DNA of 64,000 bases from Streptomyces sp. HUAS ZL42. GTDB taxonomy: Bacteria; Actinomycetota; Actinomycetes; Streptomycetales; Streptomycetaceae. Both the position numbers and the translations under genes were made by a program. The notes beneath the pieces were generated by a model, which had not been told where the DNA came from, did not search any database, and saw nothing but the letters and a program-made list of their open reading frames with translations. Positions 610 through 31,949 of the stretch are shown here, piece by piece; within the stretch, counting starts at the first letter, position 1; each line of letters starts with the position of its first letter. The stretch spans positions 434,001-498,000 of the forward strand of contig NZ_CP160403.1 in assembly GCF_040782645.1 (NCBI RefSeq), in the 5' to 3' direction.

Positions 610-1056
610 ATGACGATCGACGTGTCCGCGGAACGCGTGATCCCGCTCCCGCCCGAACGGGTGGCCGAGTACGCCATGGACTGGCGCCATGATGCCGAGT
701 GGACCCAGGGCATCCGCACCGCGGAGCTGACCCGGGAGGCGGACGAGGACGGCTTCGGCGTGGGCGCCGAGATCACCCGAACAGCGCATTTCCTCGGCCG
801 GCGCATCGACTACGTCCTGCGCGTGGCGGCGTACGAGCCGCCTCGGCTACTGGACATGATCTCCGTCGCCGGCCCCATGTCCATGCACGTCACCTACACA
901 TTCGAGCCGGACCCGAGCGGCACCCTCGCCCGCATTCGCGTCCGGGGCGGCGAAGGCGGCTTCTACCGGCTGGCCGGGCCTCTCCTGGCCCGCCAGGTCC
1001 GCACCTCCATCGGCAAGGACCTGCGCGACCTGGAGTACCGGCTCACCAAGCACTAG
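610..1056 (+). CDS. SRPBCC family protein (polyketide cyclase/dehydrase-like)
   Basis: 148 residues, the usual length of a single START/SRPBCC ligand-binding domain. The pattern of N-terminal strand (IDVSAERVIPLPPERV), helix with a DWRHDAEW segment, long central strands and C-terminal helix ending DLRDLEYRL is typical. These proteins bind small hydrophobic ligands in a cytosolic cavity; no ligand can be assigned. The stop codon TAG sits inside the ribosome-binding site of the next gene, so it is probably cotranscribed with the TfoX-like gene. Confidence 0.8.
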   Translation: MTIDVSAERVIPLPPERVAEYAMDWRHDAEWTQGIRTAELTREADEDGFGVGAEITRTAHFLGRRIDYVLRVAAYEPPRLLDMISVAGPMSMHVTYTFEPDPSGTLARIRVRGGEGGFYRLAGPLLARQVRTSIGKDLRDLEYRLTKH

Positions 1057-1067
1057 GAGGAACCTTC

Positions 1068-1397
1068 GTGGCGTACGACGAAGGACTGGCTGAACGGGTC
1101 AGACAACGGCTCGGCACCGATCCGGACCTCTCGGAGAAGCGTATGTTCGGAGGGATTGCCTTCCTTTACCGCGGCAACATGGCCGTGGGCGTGAGCGGCG
1201 ACGACCTCATGGTGCGGGTCGGTCCTGACAACACCGACGCGGCCCTGGCCCGGCCCGGCACACGCGTCTTCGACATGACGGGCCGCCCGATGCGTGGCTG
1301 GATCCTCGTCGCCGGGACCGCCCTCACGGAGGATGACGTCCTCGGCGGATGGATCGACGAGGGACGCGCCTTCGCCGAGAGCCTGCCACCCAAGTAG
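1068..1397 (+). CDS. TfoX/Sxy N-terminal domain protein
   Basis: GTG start at 1068, seven bases after a perfect AGGAGG (1055-1060) that overlaps the upstream stop. 109 residues. The diagnostic KRMFGGIAFLYRGNMAVGV stretch lies near residues 24-42 and a GWILV strand near residue 73. TfoX N-terminal proteins are small cytosolic proteins; the competence role known in Haemophilus and E. coli does not transfer to short actinobacterial homologues, whose job is unknown. It forms a two-gene operon with the SRPBCC gene. Confidence 0.85.
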   Translation: MAYDEGLAERVRQRLGTDPDLSEKRMFGGIAFLYRGNMAVGVSGDDLMVRVGPDNTDAALARPGTRVFDMTGRPMRGWILVAGTALTEDDVLGGWIDEGRAFAESLPPK

Positions 1398-1545
1398 TAC
1401 GTCGGCCCGCCCGTGCAACTGTCTGCATGCCGATGAAGCGTTGAGCTCGCAACGTCCGTGATGAGCAAGTTCTGTGATCTTGCTCGGCAGTCTGGACATG
1501 CCTACGCCCCAGTAGGCTTGTGCGTCGAACAAAGGAGCGCTGCGC

Positions 1546-2667
1546 ATGAGCTTTCGCCTGAAGGCGATCACCCGTGAGGATCATCTGGACTTCGTCCGGG
1601 CCCGGCCCTCGGCGAGTCACATGCAGGTTCCCTCGTGGGGTGATGTGAAGCCGGACTGGCGGGCGGAGAGCCTGGGCTGGTTCGACGAGCGCGACCGTCT
1701 CGTCGGCGTGGGACTGGTGCTGCTGCGGCCGTTGCCGAAGCTGAAGCGCTATCTCGCCTACCTGCCCGAGGGACCGGTCATCGACTGGGCGGCGCCGGAT
1801 CTTCAGCGGTGGCTTGAGCCGATGCTCGCGTACTTGAAGGAGCAGGGCGCGTTCTCGGTGAAGATGGGACCGCCCGTGGTGGCCCGCCGCTGGAGTGCCG
1901 AGGCGGTCAAGGCGGCGATCGCCGACCCGCAGGCCGGGCGGCTGCGGGATGTGGAGGCGACCGTGCACGAGCCGCGGGCCGTCGACGTCGCCGACGGGCT
2001 GCGCCGGATGGGCTGGCAGCAGACCGAGCCCGGCGGCGAGGACGGCTTCGCCGCGGGCCAGCCGCGCTACGTCTTCCAAGTTCCCTTCGCGGGGCGGTCG
2101 TTGGAGGAGATCCAGCGGAGCCTGAACCAGCAGTGGCGCCGCAACATCAAGAAGGCGGAGAAGGCCGGCGTCAAGGTCGTCCAGGGCGAATACGAGGACC
2201 TGCCCGCCTTCTACGACCTCTACGTGGAGACCGCCGGGCGGGACCGCTTCATTCCCCGCCCGCTGGCCTACTTCCAGCGCATGTGGACCGCGCTGAGGTC
2301 GGAGGATGCCGACCGCATGCGCCTCTACCTCGCCCACCATGAGGGCGAGGTGCTTGCGGCGGCCACGATGCTGAGGGTCGGCGAGCACGTCTGGTATTCC
2401 TACGGAGCCTCCACCAGCCGCAAGCGCGAGGTCCAGCCGAACAACGCGATCCAGTGGCGGATGATGTCCGACGCCCACGCGCTCGGCGCGGGCGTCTACG
2501 ACTTCCGCGGCATCACCGACACCCTGGACGAGGGCAACCACCTGCTGGGACTGTTGCGGTTCAAGGTCGGCACCGGTGGCGAGGCCGTCGAATACCTCGG
2601 CGAGTGGGACTTCCCCCTCAACAAGGTGCTGCACAAGGTCCTCGAGCTCTACATGTCCCGCCGCTGA
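1546..2667 (+). CDS. femX: FemAB/FemX-family aminoacyltransferase (peptidoglycan cross-bridge)
   Basis: 373 residues, normal for a FemX-type enzyme with two GNAT-like domains. Recognisable segments are PLPKLKRYLAYLPEGPV (residues 59-75), QQWRRNIKKAEKAGVKV near residue 197 and YDFRGITDTLDEGNHLLGLLRFK near the C-terminus. The family transfers an amino acid (glycine in Streptomyces) from aminoacyl-tRNA to the lipid II stem peptide at the inner face of the membrane. Start ATG follows AAAGGAGCG. It stands alone, so it may be an accessory paralogue rather than the housekeeping copy; the gene symbol denotes family only. Confidence 0.85.
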   Translation: MSFRLKAITREDHLDFVRARPSASHMQVPSWGDVKPDWRAESLGWFDERDRLVGVGLVLLRPLPKLKRYLAYLPEGPVIDWAAPDLQRWLEPMLAYLKEQGAFSVKMGPPVVARRWSAEAVKAAIADPQAGRLRDVEATVHEPRAVDVADGLRRMGWQQTEPGGEDGFAAGQPRYVFQVPFAGRSLEEIQRSLNQQWRRNIKKAEKAGVKVVQGEYEDLPAFYDLYVETAGRDRFIPRPLAYFQRMWTALRSEDADRMRLYLAHHEGEVLAAATMLRVGEHVWYSYGASTSRKREVQPNNAIQWRMMSDAHALGAGVYDFRGITDTLDEGNHLLGLLRFKVGTGGEAVEYLGEWDFPLNKVLHKVLELYMSRR

Positions 2668-2681
2668 CGCGCGGCCGCCTC

Positions 2682-2810
2682 ATGCCCATCGTCGACGCCG
2701 ATGCGGTGAGCGTGGAACACCGGCTGCAGACCGGCCGGTTGACCTGCCCGACCCGCCGTGCTGTCCTCACGCCGCGCAGGCACGGGCCGGCCGCGGCAAG
2801 TACGCGGTGA
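2682..2810 (+). pseudogene. Fragment resembling DUF6431 zinc-ribbon protein N-terminus
   Basis: An ATG opens MPIVDADAVSVEHRLQTG, followed by a stretch like the cysteine-rich start of mobile-element-associated DUF6431 proteins. Only one Cys survives where CxxC would be expected, and the frame is lost within about 40 codons. I read it as a decayed relic; the family call comes from memory of the N-terminal pattern. Confidence 0.35.
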
Positions 2811-2966
2811 TTTCGGGTCGCGTCCTTCGTCCGTCCTCGCCGGTCGCGGTGTTCGGGTTGCGGTGTCACGCACGTCTTGCTGCCGGAGTCCCTTCGGCAG
2901 CGGGCCAGAATCAGCGTCCCGTGCGATCGATGGTCGGCCCCCTGCCATCGATGATTGAGTCAGATC

Positions 2967-3863
2967 ATGGACAGCTTCGAGATCAACGAGAACCTGGTGC
3001 GCTCTCTGGTGCGGGAGCAGCATCCGGACCTTGCAGGACTGGACCTGCGTGAGGTGGTCGGCGGTTGGGACAACCAACTGTGGCGTCTCGGAGATGAGTT
3101 GGCCGTGCGCATGCCACGCACGGAGCGTGCGCCGTCCCTCCTGCGCAACGAGCACCGGTGGCTGCCCGCCCTGGCCCCGCGTCTACCGCTCCCGGTCCCG
3201 ACTCCCGCGCGGATCGGTGAACCGTCCGCACGATTCCCGCGGCCATGGACCATCGCGACATGGGTTCCCGGCGAACCAGCCGACCGCGCCCCAATCAGCA
3301 ACGCCAGCGCGGCCGACACTTTGGCGGGCTTCCTCAAGGCGCTCCATGTGAAGGCGCCCGCAGACGCACCGGTCAGTAAGGATCGCGGCGTTCCCCTCAA
3401 AACGCTCTCGGACGGTTTCGAAAGGGGACTCGCGGAAGTCGCCTCCGGAGGCGATGCCGCTGACCTCCGGAATGTCCGGGACGTCTGGGACGAGGCCGTT
3501 GCGGCTCCAGATTGGGACGGCCCGCCTGTATGGCTGCACGGCGACCTTCATCCAGCCAATGTCGTCGTCTCGGAGGGGACACTCTCGGGCGTGATCGACT
3601 TCGGTGACATGTGCGCGGGCGATCCGGCGGTCGATCTCGCGGCTGCCTGGGTGCTCCTTCCCGCGGGGGCGGCTGCACGGTTCTTCGACGCGTACGCACA
3701 CGCGGACGAGGCGATGATCCGGCGCGCACGAGGGTTGGCTGCCGCGAAGAGCCTTTTCCTCATCCTCATGGGCCGGGCCGGGGAGCGGGGCCTGCCAGGG
3801 GGCAAGCCGACATGGGGACCCGCGGGCTGGGCGGCGCTTGACCGTGTTCTGGCATCAACTTAG
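2967..3863 (+). CDS. Aminoglycoside phosphotransferase (APH)-family kinase
   Basis: 298 residues from ATG 2967 (an in-frame TTG lies at 2955). Kinase-like fold with GWDNQLWRLGDELAVRMPR nucleotide-binding strands near residues 38-55, catalytic loop WLHGDLHPANV with Asp193, and the DFG-equivalent IDFGD with metal-binding Asp211. Family members phosphorylate small hydroxylated molecules (macrolides, aminoglycosides, homoserine, sugars) with ATP or GTP in the cytosol. The substrate is unknown, and antibiotic resistance should not be assumed from this fold alone. No operon partner. Confidence 0.8.
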   Translation: MDSFEINENLVRSLVREQHPDLAGLDLREVVGGWDNQLWRLGDELAVRMPRTERAPSLLRNEHRWLPALAPRLPLPVPTPARIGEPSARFPRPWTIATWVPGEPADRAPISNASAADTLAGFLKALHVKAPADAPVSKDRGVPLKTLSDGFERGLAEVASGGDAADLRNVRDVWDEAVAAPDWDGPPVWLHGDLHPANVVVSEGTLSGVIDFGDMCAGDPAVDLAAAWVLLPAGAAARFFDAYAHADEAMIRRARGLAAAKSLFLILMGRAGERGLPGGKPTWGPAGWAALDRVLAST

Positions 3864-3871
3864 GAGGCTGG

Positions 3872-4030
3872 CAGACATTTCAGGTTGCTCAGCGTTCGCG
3901 CCAGGGCGATCGGCTTGCCGAACGACTCGCGTTCCTGGGCGAAGGCAAGGGCGTCCTCGAAGGACACCCGGCCGACCTCGAGCGCGCGCCTTGTGCACGC
4001 GGAGATCGCGATCGCCTTGGCCGACTCCAA
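3872..4030 (-). pseudogene. Acyl-CoA dehydrogenase fragment
   Basis: Read on the reverse strand, the segment encodes FEDALAFAQERESFGKPIA. This is the conserved helix of acyl-CoA dehydrogenases that follows the middle beta domain. No start, no rest of the enzyme, and both flanks lose the frame. A short relic. Confidence 0.5.
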
Positions 4031-4145
4031 CTACGCAGGGCAGCCGGCGCATCGGTGGCGCCAGCCGGCCACGGACTGCGAGCGTGCGCCGGCGAGGGCT
4101 CGGAACTTGACATGGCCGGCCCGGCGGCGCGGCTGTCGGCTCCCT

Positions 4146-4180
4146 GGGTGACCCGCACGGCAAAGCCGTGCGGGTCACCC
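4146..4180. terminator. Perfect 16-bp stem hairpin (terminator)
   Basis: GGGTGACCCGCACGGC, loop AAA, then its exact complement. It lies just past the 3' end of the reverse-strand GH43 relic and also faces the end of the APH kinase, so it could serve both strands. No U-tract, as usual in high-GC actinobacteria. Confidence 0.75.
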
Positions 4181-4199
4181 GTTCAGCGAGGGAATGCGA

Positions 4200-5215
4200 T
4201 CAGGCCCAGGGGCTGACCGCCATGAAGGAACTGTCGGCGCGGAAGGTGGCGTTGTCCTGGAAGGCGTCGCCGCGCAGCTCGAAGTCGTAGTGGCGGAGGC
4301 AGCGGCCGGGGTAGTTGTACGACTCCACGCCGACCCGAGCCGGTGACTGAACCCGGCCGGGCGCAGTAGGTGGCGTCCTGGTTGAAGATCGCCGTGCCGT
4401 TGCTCGCGTCGAAGCGGACCCGGAAGTCCCGGTGGCGCAAGTAGCGACCGGACGCGTCACGGAACGAGTAGCAGGTGGAGTCGGCCAGGCCGGGGACGAT
4501 GGTGAAGGTGGCGCTCTGCTTGACGCCGTGGTGCTGGAGGACGTCACCGGGTCGACGTAGCCGAGGCTGTCGGAGCGGACGACGGCGTAGCGGCCGGTGA
4601 AGTTGACGGACCGGAGCGAGCGGTTGGTGTTCGTCGGCAGGGTGGCGCCGACGGAGACCGGGTCGATGCTGCTCAGGGCGGGGACGACCTTCTTGATCAG
4701 GCCGGTGGAGTCGAACTCCATCCTGTCGATGGTGGTTTCGCGGTGGGTGCCGTCACCGCCGGGGATGGCGAAGCGGTGGTAGGCGATGTACCAGTCGTCG
4801 GTGTTCGGCACCTGCACCACGGAGTGGTGGCCGGGCCCCTTGATGCCCAGGTCCAGGCGCTTCTCCAGGATCACTCCGCGCTTCGTCCAGGGACCGGTGG
4901 GCGAAGACCCGGTGGCGTAGGCCACGCGGTAGTTCTCGTCCCGCGTGTCGTTCTCCGACCACATGAAGTAGTAGGTCCCCTTGCGCTTGATGACGAAGGT
5001 GCCCTCGTTGTAGCCGCTGGGGTGATGTTGGTGACCTTCGAGAAGTCGAAGGAGACCATGTCATCGTTCAGCGGGACGACGTATGCGCGGCCGTTGCCCC
5101 AGTAGAGGTACCACTGGCCGTCGTCGTCGGTGAAGACCGCCGGGTCGATCATCTGGCCGGTGAAGGCGCCGCGGGCGACCAGCGGCATTGAGGGGACGAC
5201 AAAGATCAGGTGGCG
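4200..5215 (-). pseudogene. GH43 glycosidase with C-terminal CBM42 (AbfB) domain, truncated and frameshifted
   Basis: Pieces in different reverse frames reconstruct a secreted arabinofuranosidase/xylosidase. GH43 segments are FTGQMIDPAVFTDDDGQWYLYWGN (second catalytic Asp region), NEGTFVIKRKGTYYFMWSEND (catalytic acid Glu region) and GPGHHSVVQVP; the C-terminal AbfB lectin is recognised by VNFTGRYAVVRSDSLGYV and NYPGRCLRHYDFELR. The signal peptide and first catalytic blade are missing beyond about 5215. Frameshifts lie near 5020, 4550 and 4345. CBM42 binds arabinofuranose side chains of arabinoxylan. It is non-functional as written; the repeated single-base shifts could partly be sequencing errors, but the missing 5' end cannot. 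Confidence 0.8.
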
Positions 5216-5343
5216 AGGCCGGCCAGTCAGGTGAGGGGCGGTGGGCCGGCACGGCCTGGCGGCTCGGGATGGTGCCGAACCGGATTTCGCGGGGAAGTCA
5301 TGGGGTGTGGCGGCGGCTGCGCCGCCTCGGTGAGGGGGGTTTG

Positions 5344-6681
5344 ATGAGCAACTCTCATGGGTCTGCGAACGGTGCAGTGGTCCGGAGCGCATCACGGCGC
5401 GGGGACGGGCGCAGAGTGCTTCGCAAGTCTCTGATCGCGGCGGTGGCGGGGGCGGCTGCGTTTCTCCTGACGAATGTGCTGGACCAGGAGCCGGGCCAGG
5501 AGTGGCAGGTGGTTCTGTCCGTGCTCCTCGGCGGCTCGACGTTGATCGTGCAGTACCTCGTGGACTTCGCACAGCGGTTCGAGGAGGCCGAACGGCGCTC
5601 CGCCGAGCTCCTCGACGCGACGGAGCTGTTCAGCCACGTGGATGGTTCGGTGCTCCGCTCCGACGAGGTGACCCAGCTGGTCCGCGGCTACACGAAAGTC
5701 CGTGAGCAGAGCGGCGGCATGGTGCAAGTCTTCGCCGAGAAGGAGCTGGCTCGCCTCTCCGCACTCATGAAAGACCTCGAAAGCGGTAGCGCGGACTGCC
5801 CGGGTGAGAACCACGAGTGGCTGATCGACCTCACCGAGTGCGTCAAGATGACCGTCGACGCCACGAGTACCTCGGTGGACCGGGACTTCTGGCACAGCGG
5901 GCCCGCAATGCGGTATCTCGCCGCGCAGGAGAAGGCCGTGAAACGGCGCGGCGTGGAGATCCGACGCCTGTTCGTGGTGAACGAACCGCATGAGGTCACC
6001 GACACTCTCAGGGAGCTCTGCGAGCAGCACCGCAAGCGTGGCATAGACGCACGGATCGCAGTGCGGTCACTGATGGCGTCGAACCCCTTGGTCAACGACT
6101 TCATCGTCTTCGACGGGGAACTCTGCTATGAGATCGCGCCGGACCTGCAGTCCAACCCGGACAGGACACGGCTGCATGCGAAGCCCGAGCACATCGCTGA
6201 TCGCATCAACCAGTTCAACGAGCTGTGGTCTGCGACAGGGCCGGAGCGTCTGACCACCCCCCGCTCTTTCCCCGCACACCTCTCCCCTGCCGGCTGCCAT
6301 CTGTTTCTGACCTTGGTGGACGACCACCCGGTCTCGGGGGTCCCTGCACGTATCCAGTTGCGAGTCCAGCCAGGCCCGCAACACCCGTGGTCGCAGCCGG
6401 GCGCCGACCGTCCCGAGCTCACCGCCGTCGCCACTCCCCTCACCCCGGCGGAGATCGAACCGGTCAGCGTCTCTCTACGGCCTTTCCCCTCGGGGGACGG
6501 CGGCGCGGCCGAGGTGCTCTTCACCCCCGACCAGGCCGGTACACACCGGATCCGCGTCGCCGTCCACGACCGGACCACCGGCACCGTTCTCCAACAGGCC
6601 GAGACAACGGTCCGCGTCAGTACACCAGGGGAACTCCCGTCCACCGCAACCCCCTTCATCCTGCGCACAGAAGGGGAGTGA
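5344..6681 (+). CDS. Two-TM membrane protein with coiled-coil, PLD-like and Ig-like regions (gene 1 of CHAT operon)
   Basis: 445 residues from ATG 5344, after GAGGGGGG. A basic N-terminus is followed by two predicted membrane helices (about residues 29-46 and 54-73), a charged helical stretch (76-130), a mixed alpha/beta region (about 175-315, containing AQEKAVKRRGVEIRRLFVV) and a C-terminal beta-rich domain ending in an Ig-like strand pattern (VLFTPDQAGTHRIRVAVHD). The middle region recalls degenerate phospholipase-D-like domains, but I see no HKD motif; that assignment is tentative. The stop is four bases before the CHAT gene, so the two are translationally coupled. A likely role is membrane anchor or sensor for the protease and hydrolase that follow. 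No name can be given. Confidence 0.75.
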   Translation: MSNSHGSANGAVVRSASRRGDGRRVLRKSLIAAVAGAAAFLLTNVLDQEPGQEWQVVLSVLLGGSTLIVQYLVDFAQRFEEAERRSAELLDATELFSHVDGSVLRSDEVTQLVRGYTKVREQSGGMVQVFAEKELARLSALMKDLESGSADCPGENHEWLIDLTECVKMTVDATSTSVDRDFWHSGPAMRYLAAQEKAVKRRGVEIRRLFVVNEPHEVTDTLRELCEQHRKRGIDARIAVRSLMASNPLVNDFIVFDGELCYEIAPDLQSNPDRTRLHAKPEHIADRINQFNELWSATGPERLTTPRSFPAHLSPAGCHLFLTLVDDHPVSGVPARIQLRVQPGPQHPWSQPGADRPELTAVATPLTPAEIEPVSVSLRPFPSGDGGAAEVLFTPDQAGTHRIRVAVHDRTTGTVLQQAETTVRVSTPGELPSTATPFILRTEGE

Positions 6682-6685
6682 CCTC

Positions 6686-7978
6686 ATGGCCCGAGACCTC
6701 GACACCGACGTCCTGCAGAACCCCAGCCATGACTACACCCGTTACCCCGCCCCCACCACACACCACCCCGACCTGGTCGTCGCCCTGAACCAGTACGGCG
6801 TGGAGAAGATCTTCGTCCGCCTATACGGCCCCGCCGTACCAACCTCACCGCACGGCGACCCGTGCGCAGTGCTGAACGTGAAACAAGCGACGGTACGCAG
6901 TCTGGGCAGCCGCCTGCGCCGGCGCTGGAAGGCGGAGTTCGTCGATGCCCGGCCGCCGACCGGAGAGGCGTCACCCGGCCCCGGTCGCCCCGATTTCCCA
7001 TACGCCACGCATGTGGATCTCAACGGCGAGCCCGAGGACGACCTGTACTCAGTACTCGACGAACTGGCCGCTCAAGGCGCCCATTTGCTGTTCGACGTAC
7101 TCCTCGGCGGCAGGGACCGCCCTGTCTCACGGGTGCGTCAGGTGCTGACCGAGGTGCTGTTCCGCGAGAACCTGCGCATCCGCTTCGACTCCGATGTGCT
7201 GTACCTGCCCTGGTCCCTGCTCTGCCTGCCCGCGAACACGCCTCGGAACACCGGACTCGACGCCCTCTTCAGGCGCTTCCTCGGCCATCGCCACCAGATC
7301 GAGCAGACCGGCGGCTACTACCCGGAACTCCCGGATTCCCGGGCGCCCGCACCTCTCCCGGATCATCCCTGCGTAAGTCTGAACCACGACACGGAGCTCG
7401 ACGTCGCAGGCAGGACCAAGGCGGCGCAGGTGGCAGCCCTCCTAGCCAAGGACACGACGTTCCATGAGCGCCGCAGCCGTCAGGAACTGGTGGACGACAT
7501 CGCGAAGGGAAGGCTGGACGAGCAGTTCATGTACTTCTGGTGTCACGGCCATTTCCGAGCCGAAGCTACCGACTCGCCCTTTCTGGTGGTGCAGTTGAGT
7601 GACGGACGCGACATCGACGCACAGACCGTACTGGCCCGTTGCGCCGCTCACGCAAGCACCGTGCTGCACCGCCACCCGCTCGTCCTGCTCAACGCCTGCT
7701 ACGGCGGAATGCCGGGCACGGCCGAACTGGCCCACCTGGGCGGCGCTCTCATCCAGGCGGGCGCCGCCGGAGTGCTGGGGCCTCAGATCGAGATGCCGCA
7801 GCTCTTCGCGGCCGAGTACGCCCTGCAGTACGTGACGCGGTATCTGGGCGGACAGGACACCGCAGGGGTCATCGCGCACGCCCTGGCACGCCATTTTGCG
7901 GACACCCACCGCAACCCGCTCGGCCTCGCCTACATGCTGCACTGTGGAATGGACAATCGCATGGAGCGTGCCCTGTGA
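6686..7978 (+). CDS. CHAT-domain caspase-like cysteine protease
   Basis: 430 residues, with AAGGGGAGTGA before the ATG. The C-terminal half is a CHAT (caspase HetF-associated with TPRs) domain. Histidine of the dyad is His287 in FWCHGHFRAE and the nucleophile is Cys338 in LLNACYGG, followed by LGGALIQAGAAGVLGPQIEM. The N-terminal half (residues 1-200) has no TPRs that I can see and includes LRIRFDSDVLYLPWSLLCLP, a strand set that precedes many CHAT domains. CHAT proteases act as effectors in bacterial conflict systems (for example TPR-CHAT in type III-E CRISPR). Sandwiched between the membrane protein and the hydrolase with a 4-bp gap and a 4-bp overlap. Confidence 0.88.
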   Translation: MARDLDTDVLQNPSHDYTRYPAPTTHHPDLVVALNQYGVEKIFVRLYGPAVPTSPHGDPCAVLNVKQATVRSLGSRLRRRWKAEFVDARPPTGEASPGPGRPDFPYATHVDLNGEPEDDLYSVLDELAAQGAHLLFDVLLGGRDRPVSRVRQVLTEVLFRENLRIRFDSDVLYLPWSLLCLPANTPRNTGLDALFRRFLGHRHQIEQTGGYYPELPDSRAPAPLPDHPCVSLNHDTELDVAGRTKAAQVAALLAKDTTFHERRSRQELVDDIAKGRLDEQFMYFWCHGHFRAEATDSPFLVVQLSDGRDIDAQTVLARCAAHASTVLHRHPLVLLNACYGGMPGTAELAHLGGALIQAGAAGVLGPQIEMPQLFAAEYALQYVTRYLGGQDTAGVIAHALARHFADTHRNPLGLAYMLHCGMDNRMERAL

Positions 7979-8946
7979 CGCCCGCCATCCTCGATCTGGA
8001 TCCCACCGGCTGGCTCCTGCGGGAAACCCGCACCGGCCCACGTCCCGTCCCCGAGCACCGCCTCGACGACCATTTCGCCGCAGCGCTCACCCCGCCAGAC
8101 TGGGCCACGGACCTTCTGGTCTACGCCCACGGCTGGCAGACGAAGCCGGAGTCCGCGCTCGCCACGGTCCACCGGCTCCTCGGCCTGATCACGGATCAGT
8201 ACGACCACGGCCCCTACCCGAACCTCAAACCCTGGCGGCCCTGGACCGTCCTGATCCGCTGGCCCTCCCGTTCCCGCCCGTCCCTCGGCGGTTACCGCAG
8301 CATCCGTGACCGTGCCCACACCATGAGTACCCAGGGCCACGCCTCACGCGTCGTCGGCCGTCTCCTCGGCTATTTGAACGCCCGCCGCATCGACCCCGCC
8401 GCACCGCCTGTCCTCGCCAACCGTCACGGCCAGTATCTGCACCTGATCGGACACTCCTTCGGGTGCCGACTGCTCTGCGAGGCCGTGCAGTGGGCAGCCG
8501 GCCAAGAACCGCTCACCCTGGGGTGGAGTACGCCGAAGCCGCACGGGCGACCCTTCACCGTCGACTCGATGCTGCTGCTGCAGATGGCGGCACCTCGGGA
8601 CGCCTTCGCGTCCCGCTTCACCGCCCTGGCCGAGGCACCGTTGCGGGGGCCGGTCGTCGCCACGTACTCCCAGCACGACCGCGCGACGGGCTTCTGGCAT
8701 CTGCGGGCGGAGAAGCGGGCTGGCATCGGCTACGCGGGCATCGGTACGGCACCCTCGCCCGTCTCCACCGTACGGATGCTGCCGCCCCGGCACCCGTACC
8801 CACTCACCGACCTCGACCACCGCTTCGTGAGCGTCGACGCGAGCGACGTGTTCGTGCGCGGCAACGGCCCTGCAGGCGCCCACTCCGACCATCTACGCCC
8901 CGAGACGGCACACCTTCTGCTGTCCTTGGCGGACCACTCCCGTTGA
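7975..8946 (+). CDS. Alpha/beta-hydrolase, lipase/esterase-like (gene 3 of CHAT operon)
   Basis: 323 residues from GTG 7975, whose GTGA overlaps the CHAT stop. The alpha/beta-hydrolase core is visible: strand LLVYAHGWQTKPES (oxyanion-hole HG near residue 52), nucleophile elbow HLIGHSFGCRLL with Ser161, a strand ending YSQHDRATGFWH (Asp235 candidate) and GPAGAHSDHL (His303 or His306). No signal peptide. The family cleaves esters, lipids or amides. The substrate is unknown; given its partners it may be a zymogen or partner of the protease, or a lipid-attacking effector. The downstream gene points the other way, so the unit ends here. Confidence 0.82.
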   Translation: MTPAILDLDPTGWLLRETRTGPRPVPEHRLDDHFAAALTPPDWATDLLVYAHGWQTKPESALATVHRLLGLITDQYDHGPYPNLKPWRPWTVLIRWPSRSRPSLGGYRSIRDRAHTMSTQGHASRVVGRLLGYLNARRIDPAAPPVLANRHGQYLHLIGHSFGCRLLCEAVQWAAGQEPLTLGWSTPKPHGRPFTVDSMLLLQMAAPRDAFASRFTALAEAPLRGPVVATYSQHDRATGFWHLRAEKRAGIGYAGIGTAPSPVSTVRMLPPRHPYPLTDLDHRFVSVDASDVFVRGNGPAGAHSDHLRPETAHLLLSLADHSR

Positions 8947-28699: not shown

Positions 28700-28893
28700 G
28701 AGACGACCTCACGGACGGCGGCAGCGACCGGCTGATCGACGCGTTGTTCGTCGTGGGCGGCCGGCCGCGCACGTTCCTGGAGGACGGCGACGAGGTCGTC
28801 CGCACGGCCACGGCCCCGGGCGCCGGCGGAACCCGGATCGGCTTCGGCGAGGCCCGTGGCCGGATCATCAGCGGCAAGCGGGAGGCGCGATGA
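28700..28893 (+). pseudogene. C-terminal fragment resembling fumarylacetoacetase
   Basis: Encodes RTFLEDGDEVVRTATAPG and GTRIGFGEARGRI before TGA 28891-28893. The FLxDGDEV ... RIGFG pattern is the end of fumarylacetoacetase. The stop overlaps the next ATG as ATGA, so this is a relic of a real operon junction. Confidence 0.45.
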
Positions 28894-29045
28894 GCAAGAC
28901 GGTGGCCTCGGCCGCCGACGCGGTCGCCGACATCACGCCGGGCAGCTCTCTCGCCGTGGGCGGGTTCGGGCTCTCCGGGATCCCGGACCGCCTGATCCGG
29001 GCACTGGCCGACCAGGGCGCCGACGACCTGGAGGTCTTCTCCAAA
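28890..29045 (+). pseudogene. 3-oxoacid CoA-transferase subunit A, N-terminal fragment
   Basis: MSKTVASAADAVADITPG, then AVGGFGLSGIPDRLI, is the start of a ScoA/PcaI-type subunit. After about 52 residues the text changes to the leader of the GH95 gene without a stop, so a break-point lies near 29043. The original gene is lost. Confidence 0.75.
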
Positions 29046-29063
29046 GACATAGGAGTTTGCGCA

Positions 29064-31949
29064 GTGGACCATTCCATCGACCGCCGACGGTTCCTGACGG
29101 CCGCCGCGCTGACCACCAGGGCGGCCGCCCTCCCCGGCGGATTCCTCTCGGGCAGGGCCGCGGCCGCCGTCCCACCGCAGATCACCCTCCCCGACCGCGG
29201 AATCTACGACACCTCCCCCGCCTCCTCCTGGACCGACGGCTTCCTCACCGGCAACGGCGAGTACGGAGCCATCCTCCACGGGGCGGCCACGCTGGAGAAG
29301 GTGGTCTTCAACCACCACCGTCTGGTGCTGCCGAACGGCACCCGCACCGTGAAGCCCCCCGTGATATCCGGCCGTCTGGAGGGCGTACGCGACAAGGCGC
29401 TCGCCGGGGACTACTCCGGCGCCAACAGCGACTTCGCCTCCGGGTGGTCGCTGCGCTGGACGCAGAGCTACCACCCTGCCTACGAACTGCGCATCGACAC
29501 ACCGGGCATGACCACGGTCGACAACTACGGCCGCGTCAGCGATTTCCGCACCGGCGAGGTCAGCTCCAGCTGGACCGACCAGTACGGCACCTGGACCCGC
29601 AGGGCCTTCGTCTCCCGCGCCGACAACGTGATCGTCCACGAGCTGATACCCGCCCCCGGCCGTACCGTCGACACCACCCTGAGCGTCAACACCGCGCTCG
29701 ACGGGGTGCCCACCAGCGTCGGCTTCACCACCCGCGCCACCATGAGCAACGGCTCCGGCTACCTGAACCTGCGCGGCACCTACCCGTCCAACCGGGGCGC
29801 CTTCGGCTACGAGGGCGTCACCCGGGTCGTGGCCTCCGGCTCCAACGCCTCCGTCAGCGTCAGCGGCTCCACCATCGTGGTGGCCAGGGCGACCAGGGTG
29901 ATCCTGCTGACCAAGCTGGACCGCTACGAGTCCTCGACCGCGTGGAACTCCGAGCCGCTGCACGCCCAGTTGGCAGCGCTGGGCACCGACTACGCGACGC
30001 TGCGCTCCGCGCACACCGCTCTCCACACCGAGCTGTACGACCGCTCCCGCCTCGACCTCAACCTGTCCGACGCCGACCGCAAGCTCTCCGTCAGCGAGCT
30101 GATAGCCCGTCAGAACGCGGACCGGAGCGTCATCGACCTCGCGTTGCTGGAGCGGCTCTACGACTCCGGCCGCTATCTCTTCATCAGCTCCAGCGGCGTC
30201 CTGCCGCCCCGGCTCACCGGCATCTGGACGGGCGCCTGGAACGGTGCCTGGGCCGACGACTTCACCACCGACGCCAACGTCAACCTCCAGGTCGCGGGCG
30301 GCAACATCCTCGACACCACCGACGTCATGGAGGGCCACTTCAACCTGATCCTGGACCAGCTCGACGACTGGCGCACCAACGCCACCAACCTCTACGGCGC
30401 CCGCGGCTTCCTCGCCCCGTCCCGCACCGACGGCGAGTACGGCCACATGCTCCACTTCAACAACGGCTCGTTCCCGGGCCACTGCTGGACCGGCGGTGCG
30501 GACTGGCTGCTCTATCCGCTGCTCGAGTACTACGAGGTCACCGGCGACCAGGCCTTCCTGCGCGACAGGCTCGGCCCCGCCCTGATGGAACTGGCCCTGT
30601 TCTACGAAGACTTCCTCACCCGCACCGACTCGAACGGCAAGACGGTCTTCGTGCCGTCCTTCTCCATGGAGAACTCACCCGGCAACACCGGCGTGTGCCT
30701 GTCGATCAACGCCACCGGCGACATCATGGCCGGCAAGCACGCGCTTCAGGCCGCCATCGACGCCGCGGGCGCCCTCGGCGTCGAACAGGGCAGCGGCCAG
30801 GGAGTCGCCCGCTGGACCGCCCTCCTGGCCAAGCTCCCCGACTACCGGGTCAACAGCGACGGTGCGCTGGCCGAATGGTCATGGCCCACCCTGACCGACC
30901 GCTACAACCACCGCCACATCCAGCACCTGTACGGCGCCTGGCCGCTGCACGAGATCAACCCGGAGGAGGAGCCCTCGCTCGTCCGCCCGGCGCTCAAGGC
31001 CCTGGAGAAGCGCGGCGACCAGAACATCTCCGCCCACGGCAGCCTCCACCGCGCCCTGGCCGGCGCCCGGCTGAAGGACGGCGGCAAGGTCTACAGCAAC
31101 CTGAAGAAGATCATCGGCAACAACATGATCTTCAAGTCGCTGATGACCTCCCACAACCCGAACCTCGACATCTACAACGCCGACGCCGCCAACGCCCTCC
31201 CCGGCGTACTCGCCGAGGCCCTGATCTACTCCCGCCCCGGCGTCCTGGAGATCCTGCCGGCCCTGCCCGACCAGTTGGTCAAGGGCTCCCTCACCGGCGT
31301 ACGGGCGCGCGGCCGCATCCGGATCCACACCTTCAGCTGGGACCTGTCCGCCCGCACCGCCACCCTGTCCGTCACCTCCGCCGTCAACCAGGACGTCACC
31401 CTCATCAGCCGCCGCGGCATGACGTCGGTGAACACGTCGGCCACCGTGGCCTCCTCTTTGCTGGGCACCCACGCGCGCAAGGTCTCGCTGGTTGCCGGAC
31501 AGCGCACGGACATCACCGTTTCCCTGCTCAGCGGGTGGTTCCGGCTGGTCAACCGGCGCAGTGGCAAGGTCCTGGACGTCGCCGGCGCCAGCACCGCGGA
31601 CGGCGGGAAGATCGTCCAGTACACCTCGTCCGATGCCCTCAACCAGCAGTGGCGGTTCCTGCCCGACGCCGACGGCTCCTTCCGCCTCGCCGCCCGCCAC
31701 AGCGGCAAGGTCCTCGACAGCCCCGGCGGCTCCGCCCAGGGGGCCCAGCTCATCCAGTGGCACGACACGGGCGCCGACAACCAGTGGTGGAAGCTCGTCG
31801 ACGCGGGCGGCGGCTACTGCCGTCTCGTCGACCTCCGCACCGGCTGGTGCGCGGACGTCGAAGGCGGCTCCACGGCCGACAACGCCCGCGTCATCCAGTG
31901 GCCCACCGGTACCGGCACCAACCAGCAGTGGCAGCTCGACCCCCTGTGA
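29064..31949 (+). CDS. Secreted GH95 alpha-L-fucosidase-like enzyme with ricin-type lectin domain
   Basis: 961 residues from GTG 29064 with AGGAG at 29051; a longer in-frame start at 28890 belongs to a CoA-transferase relic. Tat signal (DRRRFLTAAALTTRAAALPGG) at the N-terminus. GH95 layout: N-terminal beta-sandwich (residues 40-290), linker, and (alpha/alpha)6 barrel from about 310 (GIWTGAWNGAWADDFTTDAN, RTDGEYGHMLHF, HQL-like HIQHLYGAWP and HGSLHRALAGARL segments), then a RICIN domain (residues 830-961; NQQWRF, NQWWKL, NQQWQL). The family cleaves alpha-1,2-fucose or L-galactose from glycans and xyloglucan in the exterior. Confidence 0.9.
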   Translation: MDHSIDRRRFLTAAALTTRAAALPGGFLSGRAAAAVPPQITLPDRGIYDTSPASSWTDGFLTGNGEYGAILHGAATLEKVVFNHHRLVLPNGTRTVKPPVISGRLEGVRDKALAGDYSGANSDFASGWSLRWTQSYHPAYELRIDTPGMTTVDNYGRVSDFRTGEVSSSWTDQYGTWTRRAFVSRADNVIVHELIPAPGRTVDTTLSVNTALDGVPTSVGFTTRATMSNGSGYLNLRGTYPSNRGAFGYEGVTRVVASGSNASVSVSGSTIVVARATRVILLTKLDRYESSTAWNSEPLHAQLAALGTDYATLRSAHTALHTELYDRSRLDLNLSDADRKLSVSELIARQNADRSVIDLALLERLYDSGRYLFISSSGVLPPRLTGIWTGAWNGAWADDFTTDANVNLQVAGGNILDTTDVMEGHFNLILDQLDDWRTNATNLYGARGFLAPSRTDGEYGHMLHFNNGSFPGHCWTGGADWLLYPLLEYYEVTGDQAFLRDRLGPALMELALFYEDFLTRTDSNGKTVFVPSFSMENSPGNTGVCLSINATGDIMAGKHALQAAIDAAGALGVEQGSGQGVARWTALLAKLPDYRVNSDGALAEWSWPTLTDRYNHRHIQHLYGAWPLHEINPEEEPSLVRPALKALEKRGDQNISAHGSLHRALAGARLKDGGKVYSNLKKIIGNNMIFKSLMTSHNPNLDIYNADAANALPGVLAEALIYSRPGVLEILPALPDQLVKGSLTGVRARGRIRIHTFSWDLSARTATLSVTSAVNQDVTLISRRGMTSVNTSATVASSLLGTHARKVSLVAGQRTDITVSLLSGWFRLVNRRSGKVLDVAGASTADGGKIVQYTSSDALNQQWRFLPDADGSFRLAARHSGKVLDSPGGSAQGAQLIQWHDTGADNQWWKLVDAGGGYCRLVDLRTGWCADVEGGSTADNARVIQWPTGTGTNQQWQLDPL

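Follow-up and report, generated by a model that had tools for sequence, protein, structure and literature searches.

A CHAT protease and a predicted lipolytic-type hydrolase form a cassette with exchangeable head proteins in Streptomyces

We analyzed a 64,000-nucleotide stretch of Streptomyces sp. HUAS ZL42 (the window), which represents 434-498 kb of a 9.87-Mb single-contig genome. Three intact open reading frames on the + strand form a tight operon at 5344-8946, with a 4-bp gap between genes 1 and 2 and a 4-bp overlap between genes 2 and 3, as an earlier note on this DNA had described. Gene 1 (5344..6681, 445 amino acids; an alternative 421-residue form starting at 5416 is also present in databases) was taken in that note for a two-transmembrane protein. 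Two hydrophobic, probably transmembrane helices are indeed apparent by eye in the translation (residues ~28-73, 5425..5562), and they are followed by two domains that had been missed, a DUF6879 domain (PF21806; residues 192-297, 5917..6234; Pfam E 9.9e-9) and a conserved C-terminal domain of about 125 residues (6286..6660), here termed Ct. Located by a profile match, Ct has no Pfam family and is predicted to form a beta-sandwich (AlphaFold2, mean predicted local distance difference test score 86.2). As concluded from Pfam and homologue searches, gene 1 thus consists of an exchangeable head and the constant Ct. Gene 2 (6686..7978, 430 amino acids) matches the Pfam CHAT family PF12770 with 38.0 bits against a cut-off of 24 (E 1.7e-9), and the match reaches the end of the protein. 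It is predicted to be a CHAT-family cysteine protease, and the previously noted dyad of His287 (codon 7544..7546) and Cys338 (codon 7697..7699) is intact. Gene 3 (7975..8946, 323 amino acids, GTG start) contains the reported GHSFG motif with Ser161 (codon 8455..8457) and is an alpha/beta serine hydrolase by fold comparison. NCBIfam and PADLOC scans gave no above-noise match for any of the three window proteins; PADLOC 2.0.0 has no model for them, in line with the earlier statement that no named system with this gene set was known to its author.

We compared the operon with related loci in other genomes. Scanning 84,980 species, each represented by one genome, returned 58 loci, 45 of them close, and in the close loci the gene preceding CHAT nearly always ends in Ct while its front part varies. 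Thirteen of the 58 (L048-L060), from other phyla and with weak hydrolase similarity only, were excluded from the count of unique loci. This count started from 100 entries and reached 78 after removal of 17 duplicates and of five entries without a hydrolase or CHAT match (L120-L122, L177, L178). CHAT is present in 71 of these loci, Ct and CHAT together in 65, and all three genes in 63, so that the association the earlier note had postulated is conserved, including gene order. By extrapolation from the models, 58 of the 65 loci have a Ct-to-CHAT distance between -4 and +13 bp; the remaining seven have split or partial CHAT matches, or the value was extrapolated from incomplete ends. Where the CHAT frame is split or partial (L022, L034, L103, L108, L111 and others), the locus was kept as found. 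In six loci with CHAT (L040, L041, L043-L045, L127) Ct is below threshold, with a weak match in L043 and L044 (E 6e-4). The constant unit is Ct on gene 1, followed by the CHAT protease and the alpha/beta hydrolase, and the membrane anchor belongs to only one version of it. The distant hydrolase relatives L048-L060 come from Gammaproteobacteria, Gemmatimonadaceae, Hymenobacter, Nitrosospira and others and show no Ct or CHAT match.

The same association is seen when genomes are sampled by taxon. Over 392 Streptomyces genomes the Ct profile gave 33 matches in 30 genomes. Of these matches, 30 immediately precede a CHAT gene, with the hydrolase also present in 28 cases; at L111, one of the two Ct-CHAT loci without it, the contig ends. 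The three other Ct matches are weak and have no CHAT. In this draw the association of Ct, CHAT and hydrolase is beyond chance. In a draw from the class, Ct was found in 4 of 394 genomes, once without CHAT (G740), and the hydrolase in 4, one copy being fragmented (G638); all carriers of either belong to the genus of the window. Of 235 genomes drawn from the order, 24 carry the hydrolase, spread over two of eight genera; by our reading, 19 of the 24 hold the triad and five hold remnants only. Divergent versions occur in Actinokineospora, Dactylosporangium and Paractinoplanes, and a partial one in Umezawaea. In addition, a Ct-like stretch lies near the N-terminus of an NNH1-NACHT protein without a CHAT neighbor (L178, G740, 828-4439, - strand).

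The catalytic residues are retained almost throughout, as the earlier account would require. His287 is kept in 121/121 and Cys338 in 117/121 CHAT sequences (the query and 120 listed of 169 homologues), and Ser161 in 121/121 hydrolases (the query and 120 listed of 454 homologues). Within the locus set, where only hydrolases spanning >280 and CHATs spanning >330 model positions were counted, His and Cys are each present in 53/53 near-complete CHATs. The hydrolase has an alpha/beta hydrolase fold with a GxSxG motif, and its nearest solved folds are those of DDHD proteins (Nir1/Nir2), cutinase and PGAP1, suggesting that gene 3 encodes a lipolytic-type enzyme. Gene 3 itself reaches no Pfam family at cut-off (best DUF900, E 0.11), and sub-cut-off DUF900 matches are all that its family yields (13/26 members, best E 0.0028). 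Searched against PDB sequences, the CHAT profile gave no match and the hydrolase profile one chance-like match.

Comparisons of Ct with known domains provided faint similarities. A chagasin-like inhibitor was considered and set aside as a weak lead, with 3/35 members matching I42 (best E 0.0027); 12/35 members match DUF6941 (best E 0.0053), and the Ct profile has two CARDB-type matches among PDB sequences (E 0.12-0.16). Many head-Ct proteins finish, past Ct, in a short tail whose final motif contains Arg (LRRA, RGR or GRS, for example); 53 of 67 sequences have Arg among their last four residues, near-duplicates and L178 being counted. This tail might be a cleavage or docking motif.

About 12 unrelated types of heads precede Ct. 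STAND/TPR-type heads account for 42 of the 65 loci, and nine of them form a second cluster of 857-1943 amino acids, one member of which (L113) carries a ParA-like domain. These calls were made by BLAST linkage and Pfam scans of representatives, and some show only TPR or sub-cut-off AAA matches. STAND proteins are a classical sensor type, and STAND heads also occur in the divergent Dactylosporangium and Paractinoplanes loci. Ser/Thr kinases form five heads, with L029 as a sixth that is kinase-like on weak grounds (Pkinase E 0.17). HsdR is found three times. DUF6879 with two transmembrane helices (the window and L104), ECF sigma factors and caspase-like proteins are found twice each; the caspase-like pair (L128, L173) was assigned by eye from TGH and DAC motifs, with L173 inspected, and has no Pfam match. 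Single heads are an EAD2-VMAP protein (L011), a TIR protein, a SigB/SigF-type sigma factor, an HTH-AAA-repeat protein, ribosomal protein uL4, a trypsin-PknG protein and a NACHT protein with membrane helices by eye (L172). The head of L023 is cut by a contig end; it is counted among the 65, untyped and outside the tree described below. The SigB/SigF-type name is our presumptive assignment, and we take PknG to be a housekeeping kinase. Three of nine head proteins scanned with PADLOC match a model, through an HsdR, a sigma (MzaA) or a kinase portion.

The head of the window belongs to a rare version. In homologue searches the hydrolase and CHAT turned up in many Streptomyces, frequently on contigs of matching length, but full-length gene 1 was rare. 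Most relatives of gene 1 are DUF6879 proteins of about 300 amino acids, which reach 66-72% identity with the N-terminal part of the window head. At least three other contigs (5,085, 43,121 and 633,615 bases) carry this version, with all three proteins listed, and two further contigs list two of the three, proteins having been assigned to one contig by equal base count. The DUF6879 profile found no convincing match among PDB sequences. At L104, the DUF6879-Ct gene is preceded, at a distance of about 9 bp, by a separate STAND-TPR gene (4725-7931), and the DUF6879 head may thus have a STAND partner there; no STAND gene is seen upstream of the operon in the window.

The earlier note had described the membrane protein as one of three partners and envisaged activation of the hydrolase by the protease at the membrane, with the two-transmembrane protein as anchor. 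Such a membrane-anchored unit would fit the N-terminal hydrophobic helices of the window and L104 heads, those seen by eye in some kinase heads and in the NACHT head, and the lipolytic-type fold of the hydrolase. Most head types (STAND/TPR, sigma, HsdR, uL4), however, show no such helices by eye, and membrane anchoring is therefore not constant. Because the DUF6879 head with its two helices is one of many, we rejected the anchor as a core component, and we consider it improbable that the cassette as a whole works in this way.

We investigated how heads are exchanged by placing them on a hydrolase tree of 54 rows and ten head labels, from which L023 and L041 were left out. The tree requires 11 head changes, where the least possible is nine and shuffled labels give a mean of 14.8; none of 200 shuffles was as low. 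Heads have therefore been inherited for a while and then replaced. The tree was built with a quick method and 16 of its 51 inner branches have support under 80, so that the swap count should be read as an approximate lower bound. Six head labels occur together in a single eight-row clade (support 91). Here, the hydrolases are 66-98% identical (median 80), the CHATs 56-95% and Ct 37-95%, and the heads lack BLAST similarity except within an HsdR trio.

Three of the heads (HsdR, sigma and uL4) amount to essentially complete proteins, each with a counterpart that lacks Ct. At L097 and L100, the fused HsdR follows apparent HsdM and HsdS genes, which Pfam confirms for L100, and the ELK, GSGKT and DEAH motifs are retained in all four fused HsdR sequences. 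A related HsdR is present in 51 of 238 Streptomyces genomes. Five full-length Ct-less HsdR proteins are 90-94% identical to the head and end at most about 10 residues from the final stretch in common. At this point the fused proteins continue into Ct via a linker of about 20 residues. In a sixth (G230) the match is limited to the first 595 residues. No Ct, CHAT or hydrolase match was found in about 1.5 kb of DNA on either side of these six matches (six of the 51 genomes). In genome G032, a resident gene shares 89% identity with the sigma head over 265 residues and ends in LREKLLVEE, a point past which the fused protein runs via a short linker into Ct. By eye, the gene before the resident sigma factor resembles one for an anti-sigma factor. 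NG86 estimates of non-synonymous (dN) and synonymous (dS) divergence for this pair are 0.060 and 0.41 (dN/dS ~0.15). Genome G159 has two rplD genes, and over 211 residues the uL4 head shares 87% identity with the 218-residue resident protein, the similarity ending near residue 210 (NG86 dN 0.073, dS 0.52, dN/dS ~0.15). At this uL4 locus (L118), third-position GC is low in the CHAT and hydrolase frames (0.56 and 0.61), and the locus was therefore probably acquired. Some 1.4 kb upstream of the sigma-head operon, genes for a trypsin-like protein and for a small neighbor can be made out by eye (L101, 7050-10068, - strand), an arrangement that is reminiscent of VMAP-type systems.

We propose that these genes form a modular surveillance and self-harm cassette. 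The head would act as an exchangeable sensor or bait, and Ct would couple it to CHAT by docking the protease, by restraining it or by being its substrate. A disturbed head would switch CHAT on, and active CHAT would turn on the hydrolase, a candidate lipolytic effector, either directly or by cleavage. The hydrolase would then damage the membrane of its own cell, so that the infected or damaged cell arrests or dies and a phage or other invader is stopped. The window copy would watch the membrane, since its head is a two-helix membrane protein with DUF6879. From the anatomy, the catalytic conservation, the head exchange and the pairs with and without Ct we infer the sensing step, the contact between Ct and CHAT, proteolysis, the substrate of the hydrolase, the abortive outcome and, with them, an immune role of the module; whether the cassette works in this way is in our judgement an even call.

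In plants, NLR integrated decoys attach an immune module to copies of host proteins that are targets of pathogens. The HsdR, sigma and uL4 heads are fusions of Ct to essentially complete copies of host proteins, and we tentatively suggest a bacterial counterpart, in which the death cassette would sit at the C-terminus of essentially complete host proteins (uL4, the SigB/SigF-type sigma factor, HsdR, perhaps PknG-type and DUF6879 proteins) as tripwires for attackers. The comparison with plants is an analogy only; the guard idea itself appears in PMC12409349, in the part of that article we draw on.

The heads could instead be effectors, with CHAT cutting the head from Ct, the freed head (kinase, TIR, sigma factor or nuclease-helicase) acting and the hydrolase serving as a second effector. 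The variable domains of EACC1-caspase systems, for which Kaur et al. proposed such a release, offer a precedent (PMC7159879, in the sections consulted), the kinase, TIR, trypsin-PknG and caspase-like heads would be suitable, and linkers of about 15-20 residues separate sigma or HsdR from Ct. Yet the commonest heads are of the STAND/TPR type, usually sensors, uL4 under purifying selection would be an odd toxin, and HsdR retains its hsdM-hsdS partners. We favor sensing over effector release because of the prevalence of STAND/TPR heads and because complete, conserved host proteins would make better tripwires than toxins, and we regard effector release as unlikely.

A device for developmental cell death or regulation in mycelial actinobacteria, in place of a defense system, would be consistent with the occurrence of the cassette in multicellular actinobacteria and with its kinase and SigB/SigF-type sigma heads. 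The distribution is patchy, however, with Ct and CHAT in 28 of 392 Streptomyces genomes, and seven unique loci (L030, L035, L039, L046, L047, L174, L176) hold hydrolase remnants without CHAT, which suggests frequent decay. Three records of a plasmid collection carry related genes, two being Streptomyces triads and one from Embleya, in which an ATPase is fused directly to CHAT with no Ct seen. Patchiness, remnants, plasmid copies and the low third-position GC of the L118 CHAT and hydrolase genes point to a mobile accessory system, and we give the developmental explanation little credence.

Several findings weigh against the surveillance cassette and its decoy form. No PADLOC defense model matches the three window proteins. 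Phage records and viral contigs contain no match to the cassette, and there is therefore no direct phage link; the idea of a phage-borne module gained no support from these searches. The enzymatic heads (kinase, TIR, trypsin-PknG, caspase-like) would suit effectors as well. Gly replaces the catalytic Cys338 in four CHAT homologues (P0141, P0146, P0148, P0150), two of which are from named Streptomyces mirabilis. Near-copies of resident proteins are limited to three head types: the best resident relative of the PknG-type head is only 46% identical, and the window head shares 39% identity with the other DUF6879 membrane protein that its genome encodes; near-copy status was supported for neither. 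The divergence of the sigma and uL4 heads may in addition predate their fusion to Ct.

We recognized no paper describing a Ct-CHAT-hydrolase cassette in a literature search to which most subscription journals were outside the scope. The EACC1-caspase and VMAP conflict systems, as presented in the consulted sections of Kaur et al. 2020 (PMC7159879), come closest and follow the same logic with another anatomy. EACC1 systems combine a constant caspase-superfamily protease with very diverse exchangeable domains, up to 50 alternatives including an EF-Tu domain, mainly in actinobacteria. Their variable domains are C-terminal to the caspase and their partner is a single-transmembrane EACC1 protein, whereas our cassette has a variable N-terminal head in a separate upstream gene, fused to Ct, and a constant hydrolase gene downstream; the 430-residue CHAT protein of the window carries no variable domain C-terminal to the protease. 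The Pfam scan of gene 1 gave no EACC1-named match, the presence of an EACC1 model in Pfam being unchecked. In the ternary VMAP systems, a caspase domain is always accompanied by an alpha/beta-hydrolase gene, a likeness extended by the EAD2-VMAP head of L011. These systems carry MoxR and vWA genes together with VMAP, while gene 1 of the window is without a VMAP domain. We did not find Ct in the descriptions of EACC1 or VMAP systems in these sections of PMC7159879. Among nine open reading frames scanned around the window operon, the neighbors are unrelated to the VMAP-C/MoxR/vWA set, and no MoxR or vWA gene was recognized by eye beside L011 in the L099 gene list.

More distant parallels concern the regulatory logic. 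In Craspase, the sensor is a CRISPR effector, and we know of no hydrolase and no swappable head in this system. A sensor partner controls the CHAT protease there, as we propose for our cassette (type III-E CRISPR TPR-CHAT; PMC9729208, in the portion consulted). PrrC, Ronin and PARIS tie a toxic module to restriction, and anti-restriction triggers cell shut-down (PMC12409349, as far as the consulted part goes). They provide a functional parallel to the HsdR-head version, for which we propose such a role, but they use an anticodon nuclease or a small toxin and have, in that account, no CHAT, no Ct and no exchangeable parts.

The surroundings of the window operon are mixed. The earlier note saw a clean unit among broken neighbors, and a GH43/AbfB-type arabinofuranosidase gene just upstream of gene 1 (4200-5572, - strand) is indeed in pieces in more than one frame, as if the operon were seated at the edge of a decayed gene. 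Several other neighbors among the nine open reading frames scanned carry full domains. Further downstream, in a single frame (28890-31949, + strand), about 55 residues from the start of a CoA-transferase are fused to a GH95 glycosidase that carries a ricin-type lectin domain, perhaps a deletion junction.

If our reading is true, one output module would be wired to about a dozen unrelated inputs by C-terminal fusion. The guard or decoy idea would then extend to bacteria, where near-identical proteins occur in fused and unfused form. The cassette offers a defined genetic system for the cleavage targets of CHAT and the role of its paired hydrolase, and its heads would name components that invaders of Streptomyces attack (the ribosome, RNA polymerase, a restriction enzyme and the membrane) as testable targets.

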